A DNA stretch of 45,420 nucleotides from Verrucomicrobiota bacterium (GTDB lineage: Bacteria > Verrucomicrobiota > Verrucomicrobiia > Limisphaerales > Fontisphaeraceae): assembly GCA_037139415.1 (NCBI GenBank), contig JBAXGN010000043.1, positions 1 to 45,420 on the forward strand, in the 5' to 3' direction. Positions 16,379-45,420 of the stretch are shown piece after piece. Position numbers and translations under genes: made by a program. Below the pieces are notes generated by a model. The model was given only the letters and a program-made list of their open reading frames with translations. It was not told the DNA's origin and ran no database searches. Position 1 is the first letter of the stretch, and the number at the start of each line of letters is the position of its first letter.

Positions 16379-17068
16379 CCTGCGGCTCTCCGGGAGTGCG
16401 CACGGCCAGGCCGGGGCGTCGGGGATCGAGCCGCCGCTTTGGTTGGCTGCGCCAATACCTCCATTGCCGCCCGTGTGGGCGCCCCAAAACCATCCCCTGG
16501 CACCCGGATGCCCCGCACCCCGTGCCGTCCGGTAGGCAACCGCACCGTTGGCGCTCTCCGGGGCATCGTTGGCGCGTTTCTGCGCGGCGCTCCGGAGTTT
16601 TCCGCCGCCCTTGGCGCATTTGGGCGCGCCCCTCCGCCATTTCGGGCAGCCCCCGTGAAGTTTCGGGCAGCCCCTGCGGAGTTTCGGGCAGCCCCTGCGG
16701 AGTTTCGGGCAGCCCCTGCGGAGTTTCGGGTGGCCCCTGCGGAGTTTCGGGTGGCCCCTGCGGAGTTTCGGGTGGCCCCCATGGAGTTTGGGGAACCCCC
16801 GGAATGGTTTAGGGGAGCCCCCAGACGATTTGGGGACGCCCCCAAATGAAATAGGGGAGCCCCCAAAGGGTTTCAGCGCGCCCCCAAATGAGCCAGGGGA
16901 GCCCCTAAATGGCAGGGGGGAGCCCCCAAGCGATTTGCTGCACGCCCAATTGGGTTTTCGGCACGCGAGAAATGAAATTGGGCAGCGTGGAAACATGGGC
17001 GAGTACGGTCCGGGAGGTTTCCGGGCAGGCGGTGCGTCGGGAAGGGAGCAGCCCGCGCTAAACAGCAC
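16175..17068 (-). CDS. Possible heptapeptide-repeat protein (array 1)
   Basis: An uninterrupted leftward frame starts at GTG 17068, with GGAGG about 10 nt upstream, and reads heptads such as GGSPKPF, RGFPKLH and RGHPKLR across the whole array. The heptads resemble those of the repeat gene at the right edge (GGSAKPF, RGFSETG). The C-terminal part decays and runs antisense through the end of the SUMF1-like gene. Whether it is translated is uncertain: repeats without stop codons keep several frames open, and the antisense overlap is a warning. No known family was recognised. Confidence 0.3.
   Translation of the reverse strand: MLFSAGCSLPDAPPARKPPGPYSPMFPRCPISFLACRKPNWACSKSLGGSPLPFRGSPGSFGGALKPFGGSPISFGGVPKSSGGSPKPFRGFPKLHGGHPKLRRGHPKLRRGHPKLRRGCPKLRRGCPKLRRGCPKLHGGCPKWRRGAPKCAKGGGKLRSAAQKRANDAPESANGAVAYRTARGAGHPGARGWFWGAHTGGNGGIGAANQSGGSIPDAPAWPCALPESRRLRRGSQSHYHTETNTADPILRRAEPTARGRQTVGKAAVPRPPAQYPVFLVGIIPILAQLPHIPAHII
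16540..16960. repeat. 21-nt tandem repeat array 1
   Basis: About twenty 21-nt units lie head to tail. They are nearly identical in the centre (GCAGCCCCTGCGGAGTTTCG repeated from about 16670 to 16770) and increasingly diverged on both sides. On the right they change to a GGGGAGCCCCCAAA-type unit. Because 21 is a multiple of three, each strand can encode heptapeptides. It fills most of the 816-bp gap between the SUMF1-like gene and the rhamnogalacturonan lyase; nothing else is apparent in that gap. Confidence 0.9.
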
Positions 17069-33806: not shown

Positions 33807-34211
33807 TTAATTCGCCATCACAGGTGCCGGGGCGACGGAAGGCGTGACCACGGGAGCCGGTTTTGGTGGCGGCATTTCGCCCTGATGCACTTCTTTGTCC
33901 TTGGTCACACTGCAATGCCCATGGCCGGAGCCCAGCGCGAGACTGTCTTTCGGGCAGATGTCCACACACGCGCCGCAACTGATGCAGAGCAGGCGGTCAA
34001 TGGTCCATTTGCGCTGGGCGCGGATCACGGCAATGGCACCGGTGGGGCATTTTTTTGCGCACACGGTGCAAAACGTGCAGGTCGAGACGGTGAATGACAA
34101 TTGACCACGGGAACCGAGAATTTCCACGCGCGGCGTGAAGGGATAGTTCAGCGTCGCCGGTTTCTTGAACGCCCATTTCAGGGCCAGTTTGGACATCGCA
34201 AAATACGACAT
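33807..34211 (-). CDS. echF: Ech-type hydrogenase ferredoxin-like subunit
   Basis: The 134-residue protein carries two [4Fe-4S] motifs: CTFCTVCAKKC (Cys45, 48, 51, 55) and CISCGACVDIC (Cys76, 79, 82, 86). This matches the NuoI/EchF/HycF electron-transfer subunit of complex I-related group 4 hydrogenases. It would pass electrons from reduced ferredoxin to the small subunit. The C-terminus is an unusual Pro/Val/Ala-rich tail of about 30 residues. The start is 3 nt after the large-subunit stop, at the end of the operon. Confidence 0.88.
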   Translation of the reverse strand: MSYFAMSKLALKWAFKKPATLNYPFTPRVEILGSRGQLSFTVSTCTFCTVCAKKCPTGAIAVIRAQRKWTIDRLLCISCGACVDICPKDSLALGSGHGHCSVTKDKEVHQGEMPPPKPAPVVTPSVAPAPVMAN

Positions 34212-34214
34212 AAT

Positions 34215-35294
34215 TCACCTTTCCGTACAACTGATACAGGGATCAATGGTCAACACCAGCACCGGCACATCCGAGAGTTCGCAGCCCTGGAGGATTTTTA
34301 CCAGCGCGGGGATGTTGGCAAACGTGGGCGTGCGCACCCGCATGCGCTGCACGTTTTTCATGCCGTTGGCCTTGATGTAATAAATGACTTCGCCGCGCGG
34401 TTGTTCGGTGCGCGCGGCAAATTCACCGTTGGGGTTGCCCGTGACTTTGGCGGCGAGTTCACCCGCCGGGATTTTCGCGGCTGCCTGGCGGATAAGGTCT
34501 GCGGATTGGAAAAGCTCCTCGCAACGCACCGCGCAGCGGGCGAAGGAATCCCCGTCTTGGCTGATTGCGGGTTTGAATGACAGGTCCTTGTACGCGGCAT
34601 AACCGATGGAACGCATATCCTGGGTTACACCGCTGGCGCGCGCCATGGGGCCAACGCAGCCCAGTTGGTACGCCTCGGCCTTGGAGAGCACGCCGACGCC
34701 GCAGAGGCGCTGTTTGACCGAACTGTCGGCCAGGAAGACCTTGACGATCTCCTTCATATCGGTCTCGATGATGTCCAATTCCTTGAGCAGGTGGCGCATT
34801 TGCTCGGCGTCAATATCGCGCCGCACGCCGCCCACCTTGCAGGCACCGAAAATGACGCGCCCACCAGTGGTGGCCTCGATGACGTTTAGCACGCGTTCGC
34901 GCACGCGCCAGGAATGCATGAACAGGCTTTCAAAGCCAAAGGCGTCCGCCAGCAAACCCGCCCACAACAGATGGCTGTGAATGCGGGAAAGCTCGCCCCA
35001 GATGGTGCGCAGGTAATGGGCGCGGGGCGGCACCGGAATGTTCATGATTTCTTCAATGGCCTGGCAGTAAGTCTGGCCATGGATGGCGCTGCAAATACCG
35101 CAGATGCGCTCGGCCACATAGACAAATTCCTGGAAGTCTTTTTTTTCCACCAGCTTTTCGAGACCGCGATGGATAAAGCCAATGGTCGGCAGGGCTTCCA
35201 CGACCCGTTCGTCTTCGACCACCAAGTCCAGGTGAATCGGTTCCGGTAACACCGGGTGCTGTGGTCCAAAGGGGATGATGGTTCGCTTACTCAT
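34215..35294 (-). CDS. echE: Ech-type [NiFe]-hydrogenase large subunit
   Basis: The 359-residue protein keeps both nickel-binding pairs: ERICGICSAIHG (Cys65 and Cys68) near the N-terminus and DPCISCTER (Cys353 and Cys356) at the extreme C-terminus. True complex I NuoD proteins lack these, so this is a hydrogenase. The chain ends directly after CTER, with no cleavable C-terminal extension. The ATG at 35294 is preferred over a TTG two codons upstream. It should catalyse H2 evolution or uptake at the cytoplasmic face of the membrane. Confidence 0.92.
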   Translation of the reverse strand: MSKRTIIPFGPQHPVLPEPIHLDLVVEDERVVEALPTIGFIHRGLEKLVEKKDFQEFVYVAERICGICSAIHGQTYCQAIEEIMNIPVPPRAHYLRTIWGELSRIHSHLLWAGLLADAFGFESLFMHSWRVRERVLNVIEATTGGRVIFGACKVGGVRRDIDAEQMRHLLKELDIIETDMKEIVKVFLADSSVKQRLCGVGVLSKAEAYQLGCVGPMARASGVTQDMRSIGYAAYKDLSFKPAISQDGDSFARCAVRCEELFQSADLIRQAAAKIPAGELAAKVTGNPNGEFAARTEQPRGEVIYYIKANGMKNVQRMRVRTPTFANIPALVKILQGCELSDVPVLVLTIDPCISCTER

Positions 35295-35341
35295 GGGCAA
35301 ATGCGGGATTTAACAATGTTTTATTGAACATACGCGTGACC

Positions 35342-35719
35342 TCAGGCTTTGGCCGCCACGGATACTGAAACCGGCGTGGGGCAGGCAAAGGGATGCGGCA
35401 CCATGGTCTTGTATAGGTTGCCTTTGAAATCCACGGCCATGCCGGTGATCGTGAGATCAAACAGATCGTGCAGTTCGTTTTCGTAAATGAAGGCGCACCA
35501 ATAGATGCCGCTGATGCTGGGCAGGGGACCCTGGCCAATGGCGGTGACGCGAAACGCGGTGTATTGACCTTCCCGGTCGAAGGCGTAATCCAACTGGATG
35601 TGGTCCGCCAGCGTGGTGCCGCCGATGTGGACCAGGCGCCAGCCTTGATCGCGCATTTGTTGCACGCGTTCGACGAGGGCTTCCGCGCCAAGCGGGAGGA
35701 TGGTTTGATTCTCAATCAT
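35342..35719 (-). CDS. echD: Ech-type hydrogenase NuoC-like subunit
   Basis: The 125-residue protein corresponds to the complex I 30-kDa subunit (NuoC/EchD). It has the segment ENELHDLFDLTITGM and the typical end DFKGNLYKT in shortened form. It is a structural partner that links the small and large subunits. Its ATG overlaps the stop of the small-subunit/acetyltransferase gene by 4 nt (ATGA), and about 47 nt separate it from the large-subunit start. The length is typical for EchD. Confidence 0.85.
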   Translation of the reverse strand: MIENQTILPLGAEALVERVQQMRDQGWRLVHIGGTTLADHIQLDYAFDREGQYTAFRVTAIGQGPLPSISGIYWCAFIYENELHDLFDLTITGMAVDFKGNLYKTMVPHPFACPTPVSVSVAAKA

Positions 35720-36621
35720 GGCTTCATTTTCTCCATATAGACCCAGCGGAAAGACGGGGTGTATGACGGTTCAGACTTATAAACTTTGTAACCCAGTTTG
35801 CCATAGATGTGCAGGTTGCGTTTGCTGCGGTCGCCCGTGAACGCTTCAAAGCGTTTAACGCCCGGGAATTCTTTCTCGATCTCATTGGCCAGGCGCGCCG
35901 CCACACCGCGCCCGCGGAAGTAAGGGTGTACACTGCAACGGAGCAAGTGGGCGGTGTCACCTTCCTGGTATCCACGAACGGAACCAATGATTTTGCCGTT
36001 GACCACCGCTTTGAGGAACAGGCCGCGATCAAAGTCCTTCTGTATTTCCGTGAGCGATTGCTGCAACGCCGGCAAGCTGTCGTCGCCGTAGATTTCCGCC
36101 TCGCTTTGATACGCCACTTTTTGCAGCGCCAGGATTTCTGGCAGGTCGTCCCGCTCCGCCCGGCAGATGATCGTGCGGTCAATGCTGTTGGCCATGCTCA
36201 TCATCTCGCGGTGCTTTTCCTGGAGAATTTCCACTGCTTTGAGCACGCCATCCATGATGGCCTCGGGACGCGCGGCGCAGCCGGGCACATACAGGTCCAC
36301 TGGCACCACGGTATCCACCCCGCCGGAGACGTTATAGCAATCCCGGAAAATGCCGCCCGTGCTGGCGCAGATGCCCACGGCGACCACCACCTTGGGCTCC
36401 GGCAACTGCCGGTAAATATTTTCAATGACGCTCTTGCTTTGCGCGTTCACGGCGCCGGTGATCAGGAAAATATCGGCATGCTTGGGGTTGCCGGTGTTGA
36501 TCACGCCAAGGCGTTCGACATCATACATCGGCGTGAGGCACGCCAGGGTTTCAATGTCGCAGCCGTTGCAGCTCGAGGCGTCGTAGTGGATGATCCACGG
36601 AGATTTTTTCAGGCCAATCAT
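35716..36621 (-). CDS. echC: Ech hydrogenase small subunit fused to GNAT acetyltransferase
   Basis: Residues 1-138 are a complete NuoB/EchC small subunit with four cluster-ligand cysteines (Cys18 and Cys21 in SCNGCDIE, Cys85 in GICASTGG, Cys115 in PGCAARPE). Residues 148-301 form a complete GNAT N-acetyltransferase with the acetyl-CoA loop RGRGVA (236-241) and C-terminal strands (NLHIYGKLGYKVY). The two are joined in one frame with no stop. Internal ATG codons at residues 140, 141 and 143 could also yield a free acetyltransferase, although the upstream AGGA is further away than ideal. No fusion of this kind is known to me. The gene sits third in the operon. Confidence 0.88.
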   Translation of the reverse strand: MIGLKKSPWIIHYDASSCNGCDIETLACLTPMYDVERLGVINTGNPKHADIFLITGAVNAQSKSVIENIYRQLPEPKVVVAVGICASTGGIFRDCYNVSGGVDTVVPVDLYVPGCAARPEAIMDGVLKAVEILQEKHREMMSMANSIDRTIICRAERDDLPEILALQKVAYQSEAEIYGDDSLPALQQSLTEIQKDFDRGLFLKAVVNGKIIGSVRGYQEGDTAHLLRCSVHPYFRGRGVAARLANEIEKEFPGVKRFEAFTGDRSKRNLHIYGKLGYKVYKSEPSYTPSFRWVYMEKMKP

Positions 36622-36640: not shown

Positions 36641-37492
36641 TTACTTCAACAGAGACAACCACATTATATTGCCAAAGCCGCACACGATGGCGACCGCCCA
36701 GGCGCTCTTGACGGCGGTATGCCATTTCAAGCGGGCGAACGTGTTGTCGGTAAAAATAATGAAAAAATAGACCAATCCCACGGCCGTTGCGCCCAGCCAG
36801 GGAACCGCCGCAAAGAACAAGTACACCCAGCCCAACAACATCACGGATTCATACCAGTGGGCGATTTCAATCAGCGCCAGCGCTTTCCCGGAGAACTCCG
36901 TGGTGATGCCGCGCACCAGCTCCTGATGGGCGTGGTGGCTGGCGGCCAGGTCGAATGGCGATTTGCGAAATTTGATTTCCAGGCAGTAGAGCAGGCCAAT
37001 GAACGCCCCGGGGAGGGTCAGCACCAGGAGTTTGTTATGATCGTAGATTTGATCCACATAAAACGTGCCGGTCTGCATGTACATGCCTACCGCCGCCAGG
37101 AGAATCATCGGCTCATAGGCCATCATCTGGAGCAACTCGCGTTCCGCCCCAATGAAGCTGTAAGGCGAACTGGCCTTGTACGCTCCCAGAATAAAGAAAA
37201 TCGCCGCCAGAGTAAGCGCGAAAATCACCAGCAACAGATCAAACCCCGCGAAGAAAAGGCCACCGGTGAAAATGGTCAGGATGAAGAAAAAGAAAATGTA
37301 ATAATTTTGGGACCGGCGCACGACGACATTCTCTTTCTGCCACAATTTCAGCACATCGTAAAAGGGCTGCCAGATCGGCGGTCCCTGGCGCGCCTGCATG
37401 CGCGCGCTGATAATACGGTCAATGCCAGCCAGCAATCCGCCAATCAGCGGCGCGGCCACCAGAAAAATAAAGAAACGAGCGTAGGGATTCAT
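36641..37492 (-). CDS. echB: Ech-type hydrogenase membrane subunit NuoH-like
   Basis: The 283-residue protein has about eight hydrophobic helices and the NuoH/EchB signature SPFDLAASHHAHQELVRGITTEFSGKALALIE (about residues 180-211). This loop contacts the hydrogenase/quinone module. The start is the ATG at 37492; the longer frame upstream has no protein-like content. It anchors the soluble arm in the membrane and takes part in ion translocation. It starts 31 nt after the echA stop and ends 19 nt before echC. Confidence 0.9.
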   Translation of the reverse strand: MNPYARFFIFLVAAPLIGGLLAGIDRIISARMQARQGPPIWQPFYDVLKLWQKENVVVRRSQNYYIFFFFILTIFTGGLFFAGFDLLLVIFALTLAAIFFILGAYKASSPYSFIGAERELLQMMAYEPMILLAAVGMYMQTGTFYVDQIYDHNKLLVLTLPGAFIGLLYCLEIKFRKSPFDLAASHHAHQELVRGITTEFSGKALALIEIAHWYESVMLLGWVYLFFAAVPWLGATAVGLVYFFIIFTDNTFARLKWHTAVKSAWAVAIVCGFGNIMWLSLLK

Positions 37493-37523
37493 AGGAGCGT
37501 GGTAAATAAACGTCAATCTCGGG

Positions 37524-39410
37524 TTAAAACAAGGTCTTGGCAGCCAGTGCGACCGTGAGCACGATGCCCAGCCAGACACCGAAGTTCAGCAGCCAGGCTT
37601 CCGAAAGATATTCCGTCAGGTAATAATTGCGCATCTGCATGGTCTGTACCTGGCCGATGGCACCATGGAATAGCACGCTGCTGTTCTCAAGGTTGGCCCC
37701 GCCCATGTAGGCGTCGTTCACTTTGACGCGCCGGCCATAGTTCAGAAAGCTTAGCGGGAACAGGGCGATCATCGCCAGCATGATGAGCATGATCATCAGG
37801 TTGCCATGCGCCATGCGCGCGGTTTTACCGTAGAGTTCCATGACGTACGGTTCAATCAGCGCCGAGGAAATCAGCGGGAAGAGCACGCAGGTCAACGCCG
37901 TCAGCACGGTGAGCCCGGTGAGAGACAGCCATTCGCAGCGGCCGATGCCCTTTTCGACGTTGTCGTGAAACTTCACCACTTCGATCAGTTTGCCCATCCA
38001 TTTCACCCAGAACACCAGGGTTGCCGAACTGCCGAAGGCGATGAAAATCACCAGCAGGGGATGCGCATCCACGACCGCCTTGAGCACCGCCCATTTGCTG
38101 ATCAACATGCCAAAGGGCGCCAGGAACATGCCCGCCATGCCGATCTGCAACATCACTGACACGCGCGGCATGCTGATGACCAGACCGGACATGTCCTCGA
38201 TGTCGCGGCTGTGCAACTTGTGCTCCACCACGCCGACGCACAGAAATAGAAGTGCCTTGGCGATGGCGTGGAAGATAATCAGCAGGATGCCGGCCCAAAC
38301 CGCCTCGTAGGTGCCAATGCCGCCGCATAGCACGATCAAGCCCAAGTTGGCAATGGTGGAATGGGCGAGAACTTTTTTGGCGTCACTCGCACCAATGGCG
38401 GCAAACGAACCGATTAAGAACGTTACACTCCCAACCATGGCGACCACCAGTCCGGTCGTGGTGCCTTGCAGTACCGGGGCGAGTCGGATGATCAAATACA
38501 CCCCGGCTTTCACCATGGCGGCGGAGTGCAGCAGCGCGGATACCGGCGTTGGCGCCACCATCGCGCCCAACAGCCAGGACGAGAAAGGTAACTGAGCAGA
38601 CTTGGTCAGACCGGCGACGCAAAGCAGCGCCACCGCGCCCAGAATGGCGGGCGAATGGTTGGCGACCAGCAGGTCCAATTCAATTTTTCCGGTTTGCTTG
38701 TGGAACAACACGATTCCCACCGCAAAGGCCAGACCGCCGATCAAATTCAGAACCAAGGCGCGCAGGGAGTTGTTGCGCGAGACTTCATCCCCTTTGTAGC
38801 CAATCAGCAGGAAGGAGCAAAGCGTGGTGATTTCCCAGAAAAAGAACAGCCACAGCAGATTATTGGAGAATACCACGCCAAACATGGCGCCCATGAAAAT
38901 TAACAGAAGTCCAAAGAACAAGGGGCGACGGTCCTTCACCTCCGGGTGATGCTGCTCATGAAACTCCTTCATGTAGTCAGTCGCGTAAAAGCAGATGGCA
39001 CCGCCCACCAGGCTGATGATCAAGGCCATGATGATGGAGAATTTGTCCACCATCAGGTTGCGCGTCACTTCGAGGTGCCCTTCATTGGCGAATTCAAACC
39101 ACACCAACAGCGCGGTTTGTACCAGTGCCAGCAGCGCAATCAGCGGGCGTTTGGAGCGCAGCCCCACCACGATGATGAATAGGGCCATGGCCAGTTCCAA
39201 CCCCATCATGGTCATGCTGGCGGCATGGCCGGACACAGGGAACACCGTTTGGTCACCGGGAAAATAATGGACCGCCAGCGCCAGCGCGCCAGCCGCCAGC
39301 GCCGCCACCATTAGCGTGACCACCAAAGACCGGACCTTGTCCGACTTTACAATAAATAATCCCACCCCCGTTAGGAGGGGCAGGATGATCATCAATGAAA
39401 TGAGCCCCAT
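37524..39410 (-). CDS. echA: Ech-type hydrogenase NuoL-like antiporter subunit
   Basis: The 628-residue protein has at least 14 hydrophobic helices and the Mrp/NuoL/M core, including STIANLGLIVL and PVSALLHSAAMVKAGVYLIIRLAP (about residues 280-305), with the conserved Lys and Glu for proton movement. The C-terminal helix block extends beyond the minimal 14. It is the proton- or sodium-pumping arm of the complex. ATG 39410 is chosen; a TTG 20 codons upstream also stays in frame. It is the first gene of the operon. Confidence 0.88.
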   Translation of the reverse strand: MGLISLMIILPLLTGVGLFIVKSDKVRSLVVTLMVAALAAGALALAVHYFPGDQTVFPVSGHAASMTMMGLELAMALFIIVVGLRSKRPLIALLALVQTALLVWFEFANEGHLEVTRNLMVDKFSIIMALIISLVGGAICFYATDYMKEFHEQHHPEVKDRRPLFFGLLLIFMGAMFGVVFSNNLLWLFFFWEITTLCSFLLIGYKGDEVSRNNSLRALVLNLIGGLAFAVGIVLFHKQTGKIELDLLVANHSPAILGAVALLCVAGLTKSAQLPFSSWLLGAMVAPTPVSALLHSAAMVKAGVYLIIRLAPVLQGTTTGLVVAMVGSVTFLIGSFAAIGASDAKKVLAHSTIANLGLIVLCGGIGTYEAVWAGILLIIFHAIAKALLFLCVGVVEHKLHSRDIEDMSGLVISMPRVSVMLQIGMAGMFLAPFGMLISKWAVLKAVVDAHPLLVIFIAFGSSATLVFWVKWMGKLIEVVKFHDNVEKGIGRCEWLSLTGLTVLTALTCVLFPLISSALIEPYVMELYGKTARMAHGNLMIMLIMLAMIALFPLSFLNYGRRVKVNDAYMGGANLENSSVLFHGAIGQVQTMQMRNYYLTEYLSEAWLLNFGVWLGIVLTVALAAKTLF

Positions 39411-40038
39411 AAAATTAAGACTAAAAATAACAAACTTAAAATTACCAATGGAGTCGAAGATAACTTCCAACCAACATTAGTCAAGCTGAAGAATAAACGT
39501 CTGTATTTAGAACATATAAGCAATACTGAACAACTCGAAAACGGTTGGCATCGCAGCAGAACGGTGGAACTTGCGACATTGTACAAAAGAAAGCCTTATT
39601 TACGGTGTTTTACTGGTGTTTTTACGTCTTGCTTATATCATGACAAAACACGTTGTCATTAGGAATACCTTAAATTGCTGCGTCCATATAGCCATATTTC
39701 GACCTAAGCAATGACAATTTATGCAAAGAGAATGCCAATTGTGTGAAAAGAGACCGCTCGTCCATTGGACCCATTCCATTGGTGTTTGAAGCCATGCCAC
39801 TATTCGGTGCTGTTACCTAGATGGTCCGGACCCGTCCGCCAATGACGCGGACGCGCGCGAATCAGCGCCTTTGTAATTCGCGCTCATTAAGTTGTTTCGC
39901 GGGCCCGATTGCCGTTTTCGGTCCCCGGACCTGTGCTCCGTTCATGCATCGGCACTTAAAAAATATCCCTTTTGGACTTGCGTGTCATAAGAAAATAAGG
40001 TTTAATGTCAGCACTGAAACAAAGTAGAGAGACACAAT
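39411..40038. promoter_or_regulatory. Divergent control region between hydrogenase and flotillin genes
   Basis: This 628-bp non-coding region holds three perfect-stem dyads: ATGACAA-N6-TTGTCAT (39640-39659), CGTCCGC-N7-GCGGACG (39833-39853) and GCGCGAAT-N13-ATTCGCGC (39855-39883). TGACAA recurs near 39711. No ORF of convincing composition was seen. It must contain the promoters of both the leftward hydrogenase operon and the rightward NfeD/flotillin genes. Confidence 0.55.
39978..40006 (+). promoter_or_regulatory. Candidate promoter of the NfeD/flotillin operon
   Basis: TTGCGT (39978-39983) and TTTAAT (40001-40006) are separated by 17 nt. The -10 element matches the sigma70 consensus at five of six positions and the -35 only moderately. 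The ATG of the NfeD-like gene lies 32 nt further, after a GAGAG purine stretch. Confidence 0.35.
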
Positions 40039-42166: not shown

Positions 42167-43282
42167 ATGCGACTATTTGAAGCCATCGTGGAAGCCAATC
42201 ACCGCGCGGTGGGCGGTGACAACAGCGCGAGCATCAAGCCGGGGGATTTCCCGGATTCGCTGCCCGTGGTGGCGCTGACCTGCATTGATCCCCGGCTGAA
42301 TCCCTTGATCCCGGAGGTGCTCGGCATCCCCGAGGAGAAATTCATCTGGCTGCGCAATGCCGGCAACATCATCACCAATCCGCTCAGCAGCACCATGCGT
42401 TCCCTCGCGCTGGCCTGCATGGTCAAGGGCGGCAAGGAAATTGCGGTGATCGGCCATACCGATTGCCTCATTGGCAAGAGCACCATCATGCAACTCACGG
42501 ACCGCATGCGGGCGCTTGGCATCGAGCGGGCGCGGCTTCCTGAAAACCTGGTGGAATATTTCGGCATGTTTGCCAGCGAGCGGCAGAACGTATTGAAGGC
42601 GGTGGAACACATCCGCAACAGTCCGATCATTGGCTCCAAAATCCCGGTGCATGGTTTCCTACTGGACATCCAGAGCGGCAAGCTGGAGTGGATTGTCAAC
42701 GGCTACCAGACGCTGGATACCACGGCTTCCAAATTTACCTCCGCAATTCGTAAAGCCGAGGACATCACCCAGGCGCTGGGGGATCACCCGCCGGAATTTC
42801 AGATTGGCGGCATGAAATTTCCCTCTAGTAAAATCGGGGAAATGGCTTCCCAAACCAGCCAAGTGCTGCACCGGGTTGAGCAAAAGGTCGAGGAAATCGG
42901 CGCCACGCTGCACAAAGTCAAGGAAGAGATTGGGATGAGCAAATCGGAAACGCCGTCCGTTGTCCATGATCGGCCCACTGCCTTTGCCGCCGCCGAACCC
43001 GTCGCCCTATCCCCCACTTCCCCGGCAGCGTTGCTGAAAAAAATTAATTCCAGCAAACGTTATCGCATCATTGGCACGGATCAGAAGGTGTACGGTCCGG
43101 TGCCGGCCAGTACCATCCTGCGCTGGATTGATGACAGCCGGATTGACGCCCAGACTCCCATTCAGCCGGAAGGCGCCACCTCATGGCAGCCGCTCGGTTT
43201 GATGCCGGATCTTGGCAAAGGCAAAGCCGTTCCTACTCCGCCACCGCTGCCGGGTAATAAAGATTGGTTCCAAAAACGATAG
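42167..43282 (+). CDS. Beta-carbonic anhydrase-like protein with GYF_2 domain
   Basis: The 371-residue protein has the beta-carbonic anhydrase zinc ligands Cys39, Asp41 and Arg43 (CIDPR) and His97/Cys100 (HTDC) in a domain of about 190 residues. A linker follows with an amphipathic helix (about 215-260), then a C-terminal GYF_2/DUF4339-type domain (about 300-350: YRIIGTDQKVYGPV...WQPLG). The first domain would interconvert CO2 and bicarbonate. GYF_2 domains are usually protein-protein binding modules. The combination is not standard. It is 51 nt from the flotillin stop, so it may be co-transcribed and bound to the microdomain. Confidence 0.87.
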   Translation: MRLFEAIVEANHRAVGGDNSASIKPGDFPDSLPVVALTCIDPRLNPLIPEVLGIPEEKFIWLRNAGNIITNPLSSTMRSLALACMVKGGKEIAVIGHTDCLIGKSTIMQLTDRMRALGIERARLPENLVEYFGMFASERQNVLKAVEHIRNSPIIGSKIPVHGFLLDIQSGKLEWIVNGYQTLDTTASKFTSAIRKAEDITQALGDHPPEFQIGGMKFPSSKIGEMASQTSQVLHRVEQKVEEIGATLHKVKEEIGMSKSETPSVVHDRPTAFAAAEPVALSPTSPAALLKKINSSKRYRIIGTDQKVYGPVPASTILRWIDDSRIDAQTPIQPEGATSWQPLGLMPDLGKGKAVPTPPPLPGNKDWFQKR

Positions 43283-43446: not shown

Positions 43447-44652
43447 TTAATCCAGCACCGGCTCCGAGCCATCGAGCATCTTCACCTTGTTATGGGCGAA
43501 GTATTCCTTGGTCAACGCCTTGACCATCTTGGCGCGGTGATCATACAGGCGCTTGAGCTTGCGCGGCTTGTGCTTGGCCAGCGCGTAATGCGTGAGCAAC
43601 GGCATGGCGATGGTCGTGTCCGTATAACACACCACGGCGTCCGGCAGACGCTCCGGGTCCACCTTGCCCCAACTGACGGCTTCGCTCGGCGTCGCGCCGG
43701 AAAGGCCGCCGGTGTCGGGCCGGGCATCGGTGACTTGCAGGAAATAATCCTGGCCCAGTTCCTTGATGCGCAGCACTTCCTGAATTTGCGGTTCGGTTTG
43801 CAGCATGAAATTCTTCGGACTGCCGCCGCCCCACAGCACCACGGCGCTCTTGCCGCCGGCCCGTTTGGCCGCGAGCACAAAGGCGGTGGTTTCATTCACG
43901 TCAATCGAGGGGTTCATGCGCAGCTTATTCCCGCGCAGCTCCACGCCCGCGACGTTCATGCCGATGGTCGAATCGCCCGGCGAGGACGTGTAGCACGGCA
44001 CCCCGGCGCGGTACGCGGCGGCGAGCACCGAGACATCCTTCAGCCCGTTTTTATCTTCCCAATCCGCGCAATACTTGCCTATCAAGTAGTGCAATTCGGC
44101 GGTGCCCATTTCCTTTTGGAATTCGGGCAGGATCAACAGCGCGCGCAGCACTTCATCCGTGGCCATCAGGCAATCGCTGTAGCCCAGCAGCACGTCATAA
44201 ATGCGGACGATGTCGTTATTGCGCAATTCCGTATCGTCAAACTTGAAGTTCCCCACCTTCACCGGGTAATTCAGCGGGTAATGCATGTCATGATACAGGT
44301 TCGCGCCCGTGGCGACGATCCAATCCACGAAGCCAGCCTTGATCAGCGGCACCACCGAGGAGCAGCCCAGCCCGGCGGGCGTCAGCGCGCCGGAAAGGCT
44401 CATGCCGATGGTCACATCCTGATCCAGCATTTTCTCGACAAACAACTGGCAGCCCTCCTTGAGGCGGGCGGAATTGTACGCCAGGAACGTGTTGTCAATC
44501 AGATCGGCCAGCTTTTCCTTGCCGGTCAGGTTCTTGGGCAAAATGCGTTTGCCGGACATGAACTTGGCCCGGTGCGGACACTTCTTGGCCTTCAGCCACT
44601 CCGGCGTTTCAGTCAGGTCTTCACGATAACGTGCGTTCTTTTGATGTTTCAT
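43447..44652 (-). CDS. Deoxyhypusine synthase-family protein
   Basis: The 401-residue protein is a full-length member of the deoxyhypusine synthase family. It has the NAD-binding segments [12 protein letters not shown] (about residues 114-125) and [11 protein letters not shown], and GGGSPKNF with Lys280 at the position of the catalytic lysine of the human enzyme. Bacteria lack the eIF5A target, and characterised bacterial members make homospermidine from spermidine and putrescine; I infer a polyamine role. ATG 44652 is preferred over a TTG four codons upstream. A terminator follows the gene. Confidence 0.85.
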
Positions 44653-45013
44653 GTTCTGTATCAATTAAAGTTACGGCCCTAACAATACGGATACCCGGCC
44701 AATTGCCAACAAAAATCATTCCGCCCATTCCGCTCTCCGTCACTCCCTCGGCCACTATCTTCAGATTATGGGAATCCGATCCAGCGCCGGGTTGTGCCAA
44801 TGGAGCCGCGTGAAACCGCGCACCCGCCAATGTGTGCCGGGAGAATCCCAAGGGGGATTCCGGCCTCCAGCCCGGCAGCGTTGGAGAAACCTTCCACGCC
44901 ACCCGCTCTGCGCCGAACCAATTTATTTTTATTTTCCTGCATTTTTTTGTTGCACGACGCCAAGGACTTGATAAGTTTTCCGCGATTCAGCAAAGACCTT
45001 AAGAAGGAACGAC
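44653..45013. other. Intergenic region with T-rich stretch
   Basis: This 361-bp gap has one perfect 7-bp hairpin (GAATCCC-AAGG-GGGATTC, 44843-44860) without a T-run and a T-rich stretch at 44920-44951. It should hold the promoters of both flanking genes. No convincing coding sequence was seen. Confidence 0.5.
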
Positions 45014-45420
45014 ATGGATCGTTACGGGAACAGGGTTGCGGTTTTGGATATAATTCCGACCGGACAACAGGACGCGCTAACCAGCGCGCTCCCCGCCATT
45101 TCCCCCGCCCCCGCCCAAACCGTGGCGCGCCGGGATGGTTCATCCGGAAGAATCACCCTCCCAAAAAAATCATTCTTCGGGTTCTCTGACTCTCCCCGAC
45201 AGTCCTCCACGAGCAGTAGAGGGTTCTCTAAATCATTTCGCGGGTTCTCCAACACCCTTGGAGAGTTCTCCGAGACCCTTGGAGGATCCGCTAAATCATT
45301 TCGCGGGTTCTCCGAGACCGGTGGAGGGTTCTCCAACACTCTCCGAGGGTTCTCCGAGACCCGTGGAGGATCCGCCAAACCGTTCCGAGAGTTCTCCAAG
45401 ACTGGTGGAGGGTTCTCCAA
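45014..45420 (+). CDS. Heptapeptide-repeat protein, 5' part (array 2)
   Basis: An open frame begins at ATG 45014 with AAGGA five nt upstream and runs to the window edge (135 codons) without a stop. The first 60 residues are unique and end in LPKKSFFGFSDSPRQ. After that come heptads of 21 nt: GFSKSFR, GFSNTLG, EFSETLG, GGSAKSFR-like, GFSETRG and so on. Between units, codons change mainly in the third position (TTT/TTC, ACC/ACT, CTT/CTC), as expected for a coding repeat. The reverse strand is also open, so the reading direction rests on the start signals. No family is recognised; the C-terminus lies outside the window. Confidence 0.55.
   Translation, partial: MDRYGNRVAVLDIIPTGQQDALTSALPAISPAPAQTVARRDGSSGRITLPKKSFFGFSDSPRQSSTSSRGFSKSFRGFSNTLGEFSETLGGSAKSFRGFSETGGGFSNTLRGFSETRGGSAKPFREFSKTGGGFS
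45222..45420. repeat. 21-nt tandem repeat array 2
   Basis: Nine to ten 21-nt units with a GGGTTCTCC- or GGATCCGC-type start lie head to tail and continue past the window edge. The units resemble those of array 1 when array 1 is read leftward. Confidence 0.88.

Follow-up and report, generated by a model that had tools for sequence, protein, structure and literature searches.

The DNA analysed here, called the window, is a stretch of 45,420 nt from the genome of a bacterium of the Verrucomicrobiota (genome G000). A six-gene operon on its minus strand, running from 39470 to 33807 in the order NuoL, NuoH, NuoB-GNAT, NuoC, NuoD and ferredoxin, encodes the predicted subunits of an energy-converting hydrogenase; the Ech, Nuo and Mbh subunit names follow general usage. 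The features of the operon and of its fused third gene are as follows.

37524-39470, minus strand: antiporter-like membrane subunit (NuoL/EchA type), PF00361, E 2.1e-57
36641-37579, minus strand: NuoH/EchB membrane subunit, PF00146, E 6.2e-44
35716-36621, minus strand: fusion gene, small subunit (EchC/MbhJ/NuoB type) plus GNAT, 301 codons and a stop, ATG start; from the open reading frame list, Pfam and phmmer
36217-36609, minus strand: small-subunit domain, residues 5-135, by phmmer; cluster cysteines C18, C21, C85 and C115
36193-36204, minus strand: in-frame ATG codons at residues 140, 141 and 143, a weak candidate internal start
36181-36216, minus strand: junction, residues 136-147, from the predicted model and an alignment
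35719-36180, minus strand: GNAT domain, residues 148-301, from Pfam, the predicted model and VIA-align
35899-35916, minus strand: P-loop R236-G-R-G-V-A241, fitting the consensus Gln/Arg-x-x-Gly-x-Gly/Ala
35803-35805, minus strand: Y273, at the place of the usual GNAT general-acid tyrosine (Y-x3-G-[FY]), spaced as RimI Y115, YjaB Y117 and PhnO Y128
35342-35719, minus strand: NuoC/EchD-like subunit, overlapping the fusion gene by 4 nt, PF00329, E 5.8e-05
34215-35300, minus strand: large subunit NuoD/EchE, PF00346 and PF00374; L1 CGICSAIH, L2 DPCISCTER
33807-34211, minus strand: ferredoxin-like subunit NuoI/EchF, two Fer4 stretches

The Ech core is described in excerpts of PMC9356269 as six subunits, two integral membrane and four hydrophilic, and the window operon encodes the same set. 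Both [NiFe]-binding motifs, given in an excerpt of PMC7886697 as C[GS][ILV]C[AGNS]xxH (L1) and [DE][PL]Cx[AGST]Cx[DE][RL] (L2), were found in the window large subunit; since they are intact, the complex should be a true hydrogenase rather than a cofactor-less relative. The best solved relatives by sequence were the small and large subunits of the group 4d Mbh hydrogenase of Pyrococcus furiosus (6cfw), a result compatible with subgroups 4d, 4e and 4g alike. The large subunit matched 6cfw_L with an E-value of 1.4e-79 and the two align to a common C-terminal end, and residues 5-134 of the fusion matched MbhJ (6cfw_J) with an E-value of 5e-42 in phmmer. Unlike the window protein, MbhJ (167 aa) has no GNAT, and the short six-gene operon is itself unlike that of Mbh. 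The Ech-type hydrogenases of group 4e and of the heterogeneous group 4g, either of which may hold the window enzyme, share the six-subunit core (PMC9356269, in part) and differ from the window in that its small subunit bears a GNAT. By prediction, then, the gene product is a small subunit that relays electrons in an energy-converting [NiFe] hydrogenase of the Ech type, with six subunits, and that bears a GNAT domain at its C-terminus; what is new is the extra domain on a core subunit of an otherwise known enzyme. Among the fused relatives, the large subunit of L035 is the only one in which a proline replaces the conserved histidine of L1; L2 was unreadable in L033, L054 and L072.

Both halves of the fusion were recognized within a single predicted protein, Oxidored_q6 covering residues 18-128 (E 1.5e-29), Acetyltransf_1 (PF00583) residues 181-278 (E 4.6e-12). 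The cysteines C18, C21, C85 and C115, which we take to be the ligands of the proximal cluster, were present in the window and in every NuoB row compared (59/59). The preliminary description had reported a complete small subunit, its four cluster cysteines all present, and a complete GNAT with its acetyl-CoA loop, and had regarded the fusion as built into the operon by the 4-nt overlap of the neighbouring gene (35719 to 35342) with its stop; all of this was borne out. The preliminary description named no strand for these coordinates; reading of the plus strand at 35716-36621 in the same frame was interrupted by a stop. A chance open frame was ruled out by the conserved domains and by dN/dS values well below 1. 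That the fusion might be an artefact of sequencing or assembly is hardly credible: most of the genomes are draft metagenome assemblies, but 29 complete and distinct fused copies were found, and for two of these the genome, G002 (4.7 Mb) or G706 (6.0 Mb), is a single contig. It had been proposed that other Ech-type operons be searched for the same fusion, and that relatives all encoding separate proteins would speak for an error; relatives, G002 and G706 included, share the fusion. The predicted NuoB-GNAT fusion is accordingly real and no sequencing error.

The 29 copies compared comprise the window, 20 from a species-wide scan and 8 further genes; the fused loci total 31, of which L212 and L213 were excluded from the 29 as cut at contig ends. 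Of 97 relatives searched, eight have both domains in a single frame. One is the window; four others matched in full at 62-75% identity, and in the remaining three the longest stretch was at 70-74% identity and the GNAT part held an insertion. G044, a close relative in this set, has the small subunit alone. Small subunits with 61% identity or more were present in 18 of 320 genomes from the order (15 fused, 3 unfused), the next matches reaching at most 48%; a GNAT-only profile was positive in 20 of the 320, with 15 fusions, four free GNATs and one truncated by the start of a contig. In a collection of 84,980 genomes, each standing for one species, two GNAT peptide patterns (A[YG]Q[ST]EA... and PA[LQ]QQ...) gave 64 loci, of which 20 were fused and lay in the same operon; the conservation of residues ~170-178 and ~184-191 in these hits is partly selected by the patterns, and these columns were not used as evidence. 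The record titles of the 20 name Verrucomicrobia/Verrucomicrobiales/Limisphaerales, Lentisphaerae/Victivallis, Omnitrophota and, for L054, only a 'bacterium'; by kinship the Victivallis genome falls in the phylum of the window. The phylum of an Omnitrophota MAG, with 285 genomes searched, gave six complete fusions and one cut fusion; the window's phylum, with 288 searched, gave six, the window's own counted. Confinement to the genus or family of the window was ruled out by these copies across wider groups, and the predicted fusion is lastingly kept in several bacterial groups whose members are mostly uncultured. Viral contigs gave 23 stretches that matched a pattern, none of which was confirmed.

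Full-text literature, with most subscription papers lying outside the search, yielded no description of this fusion. In the accessible part of a neighbourhood survey that included [NiFe] hydrogenases (PMC12727194), GNAT genes appear in a neighbour table that may belong to either of its two targets; two papers with 'GNAT' beside hydrogenase terms (PMC13101534, PMC10924467) were, in the parts seen, unrelated to the fusion.

A hydrogenase tree was built from NuoB, NuoD and NuoH with 56 rows, 29 fused and 27 unfused; L066 and L213 were left out of the fused rows for a missing subunit and L212 was included, and among the unfused loci L230 and L232 were omitted (missing or short large subunit) and L217 is a free GNAT locus. 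All 29 fused rows fell in one clade of 32 rows with an SH-aLRT of 95 and a UFBoot of 91, the latter below the usual 95. Three unfused rows lie inside this clade, namely G044, deep within the Verrucomicrobiota part, and the pair G440 and G489, and the fused/unfused label requires three changes on the tree (3-4 over bootstrap trees). In the unrooted GNAT tree a branch with a support of only 87 separated the fused domains from the 37 free ones. Several independent fusions are not favoured by the three changes and the single GNAT branch; a single gain followed by two losses is the best account of the three changes, a reading that leaves the order of events unproved. The nearer unfused relatives have the same gene order and no GNAT match between NuoB and NuoC, which marks the GNAT as an add-on, and the five most distant ones (L239-L243) have a different gene order. 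The probable course is thus a single capture of a GNAT behind the small subunit, long retention and at least two losses; the two losses on the tree make the module dispensable. At L214, L218 and L219, where the tree places GNAT loss, NuoB is followed directly by NuoC. The window's genome contains at least three further NuoB-like genes (C39:10279-10671, C62:3773-4156 and C33:30619-30963), with 39-47% identity to the small subunit, and the matches listed for them stop before the GNAT proper.

An AlphaFold single-chain model showed a full GNAT fold at residues 148-301, mostly at high confidence (mean pLDDT 63-95 in ten-residue blocks from 151 onward, most above 80), and a single helix, residues 119-144, that passes from the small subunit into the junction. 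The arrangement of the domains in this model is not reliable, with residues 18-44 and 89-97 below a pLDDT of 50, and the model is silent on placement in the complex. Superposition on the acetyl-CoA-bound GNAT 3f0a with VIA-align gave a Z of 21.3 and an rmsd of 1.6 over 147 residues (148-300), and that on RimI (2cnm) a Z of 19.7; the structural matches were GNATs, the Pfam match was above the gathering score, and the domain alone matched YpeA (2pdo) with an E-value of 1.4e-10 in phmmer. RimI, other E. coli protein acetyltransferases and YpeA have the same fold; all of these differ as free enzymes, the fold identity of the window to RimI structures being 17-19%. Among the closest systems outside the fusion were stand-alone GNATs, here called 'AYQSEA' after their motif, from Asgard archaea, Thermodesulfobacteriota, Bacillota and others. 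They are mostly free proteins of ~150 aa, reach 54% domain identity to the fusion and have many conserved residues in common with the fused domains, among which E249, E259, T262-G263, S266 and K298 are largely shared. L041, the one free member scanned with Pfam, matched only general GNAT families. The fused GNAT would derive from a family in which other members stand alone. For the alignment, 36 of the 44 non-fused scan loci and one from G257 (37 in total) were used as the free set, L075, L079, L087, L088, L089, L091, L093 and L094 being left out.

The P-loop consensus given in the consulted part of PMC4964394, Gln/Arg-x-x-Gly-x-Gly/Ala, was found in 23/29 fused copies and 35/37 free ones; six fused copies deviate, and G239 and H232 are each present in 28/29. 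Position 273, by comparison, is variable in the fused proteins, with 11 Tyr (the window copy among them), 7 Phe, 6 Leu, 4 His and 1 Gly, and is Tyr in all 36 readable free GNATs (one gap) and in six further readable ones, taken from the eight left out of the alignment and the free GNATs of G258-G260. The spacing of this residue was read from the mutagenesis primers for RimI Y115, YjaB Y117 and PhnO Y128 in PMC6199490, excerpts of which also report that the acetylation signal was lost or lowered in Tyr mutants of four E. coli GNATs. At least four changes of state at this position were required on a tree of 28 rows, and 12 of the 18 fused copies without Tyr retain the P-loop. Some active GNATs lack this Tyr and are served by water or another residue instead, as a section of PMC4964394 states, so that its loss is no proof of lost catalysis. 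The window copy retains N269, Y273 and the full P-loop. Pairwise dN/dS was calculated with YN00, with NG86 as fallback, and for nine pairs, several with a dS near or over 1, gave 0.04-0.21 in the GNAT part and 0.01-0.09 in NuoB with an outlier of 0.43 (L032/L033); the GNAT value was the higher in eight of the nine. Six of these pairs are without Tyr and still constrained (L037/L038, L032/L033, L039/L072, L049/L210, L210/L211 and L049/L054). The GNAT part is, on these estimates, clearly constrained by purifying selection, and the pattern speaks for a function dependent on the fold and, mostly, on the acetyl-CoA loop, but not always on acetyl transfer. An insertion of 21-24 residues near residue 200, between the second GNAT helix and the next strand, was present in 7/29 copies (L035, L036, L037, L038, L039, L072 and L209).

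Pyruvate:ferredoxin oxidoreductase (PFOR) yields acetyl-CoA and reduced ferredoxin together, and energy-converting hydrogenases make H2 from reduced ferredoxin. A homodimeric PFOR over the cut-off was found in 18/21 fused genomes of the window's phylum (the fusion of G266 being cut), in 12/14 genomes with the unfused hydrogenase, and in 1/14 members of the order chosen without this hydrogenase, one more scoring below the cut-off; in the Omnitrophota-like group it was found in 2/9 fused genomes. The gene adjoins the operon in 4/60 loci searched, all of them unfused (L220, L221, L223 and L224); it stands beside none of the 30 fused loci searched and lies on another contig in the window's own genome. 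As support for the fusion this co-occurrence was rejected, since it tracks the hydrogenase and not the GNAT; it supports the pathway only. Recurring neighbours of the fused operon at 22 fused loci and the window were a HypA-like gene, a Fer4_20/Pyr_redox_2 oxidoreductase and a HypC-radical-SAM gene, and none explains the GNAT; the domains of these neighbours are from Pfam scans of single members, and several other neighbour clusters were reverse-strand frames over the operon.

The reading preferred here, with a probability of about 0.42, is that the captured GNAT would serve as an acetyl-CoA-binding module on the electron-relay subunit, tuning ferredoxin-driven H2 release, with catalysis optional. 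The hydrogenase would oxidise ferredoxin reduced by PFOR; the tethered GNAT would bind acetyl-CoA, or sense the acetyl-CoA/CoA ratio, and this binding would adjust H2 release so as to match it to the other product of PFOR. Acetyl transfer would be optional, probably lost in many lineages and still possible in the window protein. It is conceivable, and is put forward only tentatively, that a built-in acetyl-CoA sensor gates electron flow to protons and keeps both products of PFOR in step, many lineages sensing only. Tuning of H2 release is favoured by the single fused clade, the P-loop in 23/29 copies beside Tyr in 11/29, the purifying selection, the intact [NiFe] motifs and the PFOR records, that is, its place beside four unfused operons and its presence in 18/21 fused genomes of the phylum; it is weakened by the independence of PFOR from the GNAT, the lack of PFOR beside all 30 fused loci searched and its presence in just 2/9 fused Omnitrophota-like genomes, the six deviating P-loops, the two losses of the module and the higher dN/dS of the GNAT. 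A precedent is PanZ/PanM, a GNAT fold that acts as a CoA-binding regulator of its partner: excerpts of PMC3496974 describe PanZ as binding CoA or acetyl-CoA and activating PanD apparently without catalysis, and report that added CoA or acetyl-CoA changed nothing in vitro. PanZ differs as a free protein with an unrelated partner; the window scored 21.9 bits against the cut-off of 22 for Pfam PanZ (PF12568), and L209, one of four fused relatives scanned, scored 26.7. A link of H2 metabolism to acetyl-CoA, suggested in the preliminary description, thus stands as the best lead in view of the intact loop, although, in the loci searched, PFOR adjoins unfused operons only.

An active enzyme, acetylating the hydrogenase itself, ferredoxin or a nearby protein as a covalent brake or switch, appears unlikely as the general function. 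The window copy speaks for it with its full P-loop, N269 and Y273, as do the residues largely common to the free proteins, and Lys is retained at positions 47, 77 and 136 (K47, K77, K136) in 90% or more of the 29 fused copies. Conservation of these lysines may, however, have other reasons, and 18/29 fused copies are without the usual general-acid Tyr, the residue whose mutation lost or lowered the acetylation signal in the four E. coli GNATs (PMC6199490, in part). The earlier suggestion that a partner is acetylated is therefore weakened as a general function and keeps its force for the window copy, which retains Tyr. Still less probable is a structural or assembly module in which the GNAT offers a docking surface to the membrane, a partner enzyme or an assembly factor and acetyl-CoA binding is a relic; the same loss of Tyr, the deviating P-loops, the GNAT insertion in seven copies and the one continuous helix leading into the domain in the predicted model agree with it, and the retention of the P-loop consensus, G239 and H232, together with purifying selection on the domain, argues against it.

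Least probable of the functional readings, and quite doubtful, is translational convenience, by which a passenger enzyme with an unrelated substrate was fused after insertion into the operon and is perhaps also made from M140. Free members of the family occur in Asgard archaea, Thermodesulfobacteriota, Bacillota and other records, and no Ech-type operon was found near free GNATs by tblastn in up to 6 kb on each side, which counts for a passenger; maintenance of the fusion across record groups named as three phyla counts against one. The ATG codons proposed as an internal start are there at residues 140, 141 and 143, and residue 140 is Met in 16/29 copies. Mean Shine-Dalgarno (SD) pairing with the anti-SD sequence was -4.9 kcal/mol for 29 linker ATGs vs -2.6 kcal/mol for 72 other internal ATGs. 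The start itself must be called weak: the linkers of L042, L049, L210 and L211 hold no start codon, and the purine-rich SD-like stretch lies well upstream of the ATG inside coding sequence that is itself conserved, and is thus constrained by coding.

Group 4 hydrogenases and complex I have a common core. A direct link of an electron-relay subunit to a carbon metabolite was not found described in the searched literature. Should the GNAT be a sensor of acetyl-CoA, the Verrucomicrobiota, Lentisphaerota and Omnitrophota concerned would tune their fermentative H2 release at the enzyme and not only by transcription. The repeated change of the catalytic Tyr beside retained acetyl-CoA-loop residues offers a natural series for studying how a sensor may arise from an enzyme fold.

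A side result, from outside the window, concerns hydrogenase maturation. HypD was found in 42/55 tested genomes with this kind of small subunit (17/26 plus 25/29). The 13 genomes without it are the fused G610, G636, G739, G321-G325, G395, G451 and G574 and the unfused G440 and G489; among Omnitrophota-like fused genomes only G320 has HypD. In none of these 13 did HypF pass the cut-off; HypE passed it only in G325, possibly just an incomplete genome, where a HypF fragment was found as well. Their [NiFe] motifs are intact in every readable operon (L066 and L212 were unreadable; in L054 the first motif only). In six of the 13, HypA is followed, at the end of the Ech operon, by a gene of ~430 codons whose product begins as HypC, N-terminal Met-Cys included, and continues as a HydE-like radical-SAM domain with CxxxCxxC:

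L048, 5771-7066: HypC-HydE-like radical-SAM fusion behind HypA
L060, 8828-10126: the same
L206, 4490-5776: the same
L207, 9087-10403: the same
L218, 8385-9680: the same
L219, 8933-10225: the same

Five of the proteins were scanned and gave 202-236 bits with HydE TIGR03956, against a cut-off of 254.6. G610 and G636, which are 95-97% complete, carry this gene; it was found at no other locus within the flanking stretch examined, and at L049, L210 and L211, also from genomes without HypD, HypA is followed by other genes. Six Hyp proteins are stated to be necessary for the [NiFe] cofactor in an excerpt of the review PMC12134894; in the six genomes with the HypC-HydE-like fusion HypD was not found, nor HypE or HypF over the cut-off, although the [NiFe] motifs are intact, so that the fusion may mark another maturation route. 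The window's own genome has HypD, HypE and HypF over the cut-off and gave no match for HypA.

Elsewhere in the window, tandem repeats whose period is 21 nt or a multiple of it were found at 16640-16929 and 45242-45420, the latter running to the contig end, which is also the window end. A carbonic-anhydrase-like protein (PF00484) is encoded at 42167-43282 on the plus strand, with a weak C-terminal GYF_2 match below the cut-off, and a protein of the deoxyhypusine-synthase family (PF01916, E 1.6e-62), here in a bacterium, at 43447-44664 on the minus strand.
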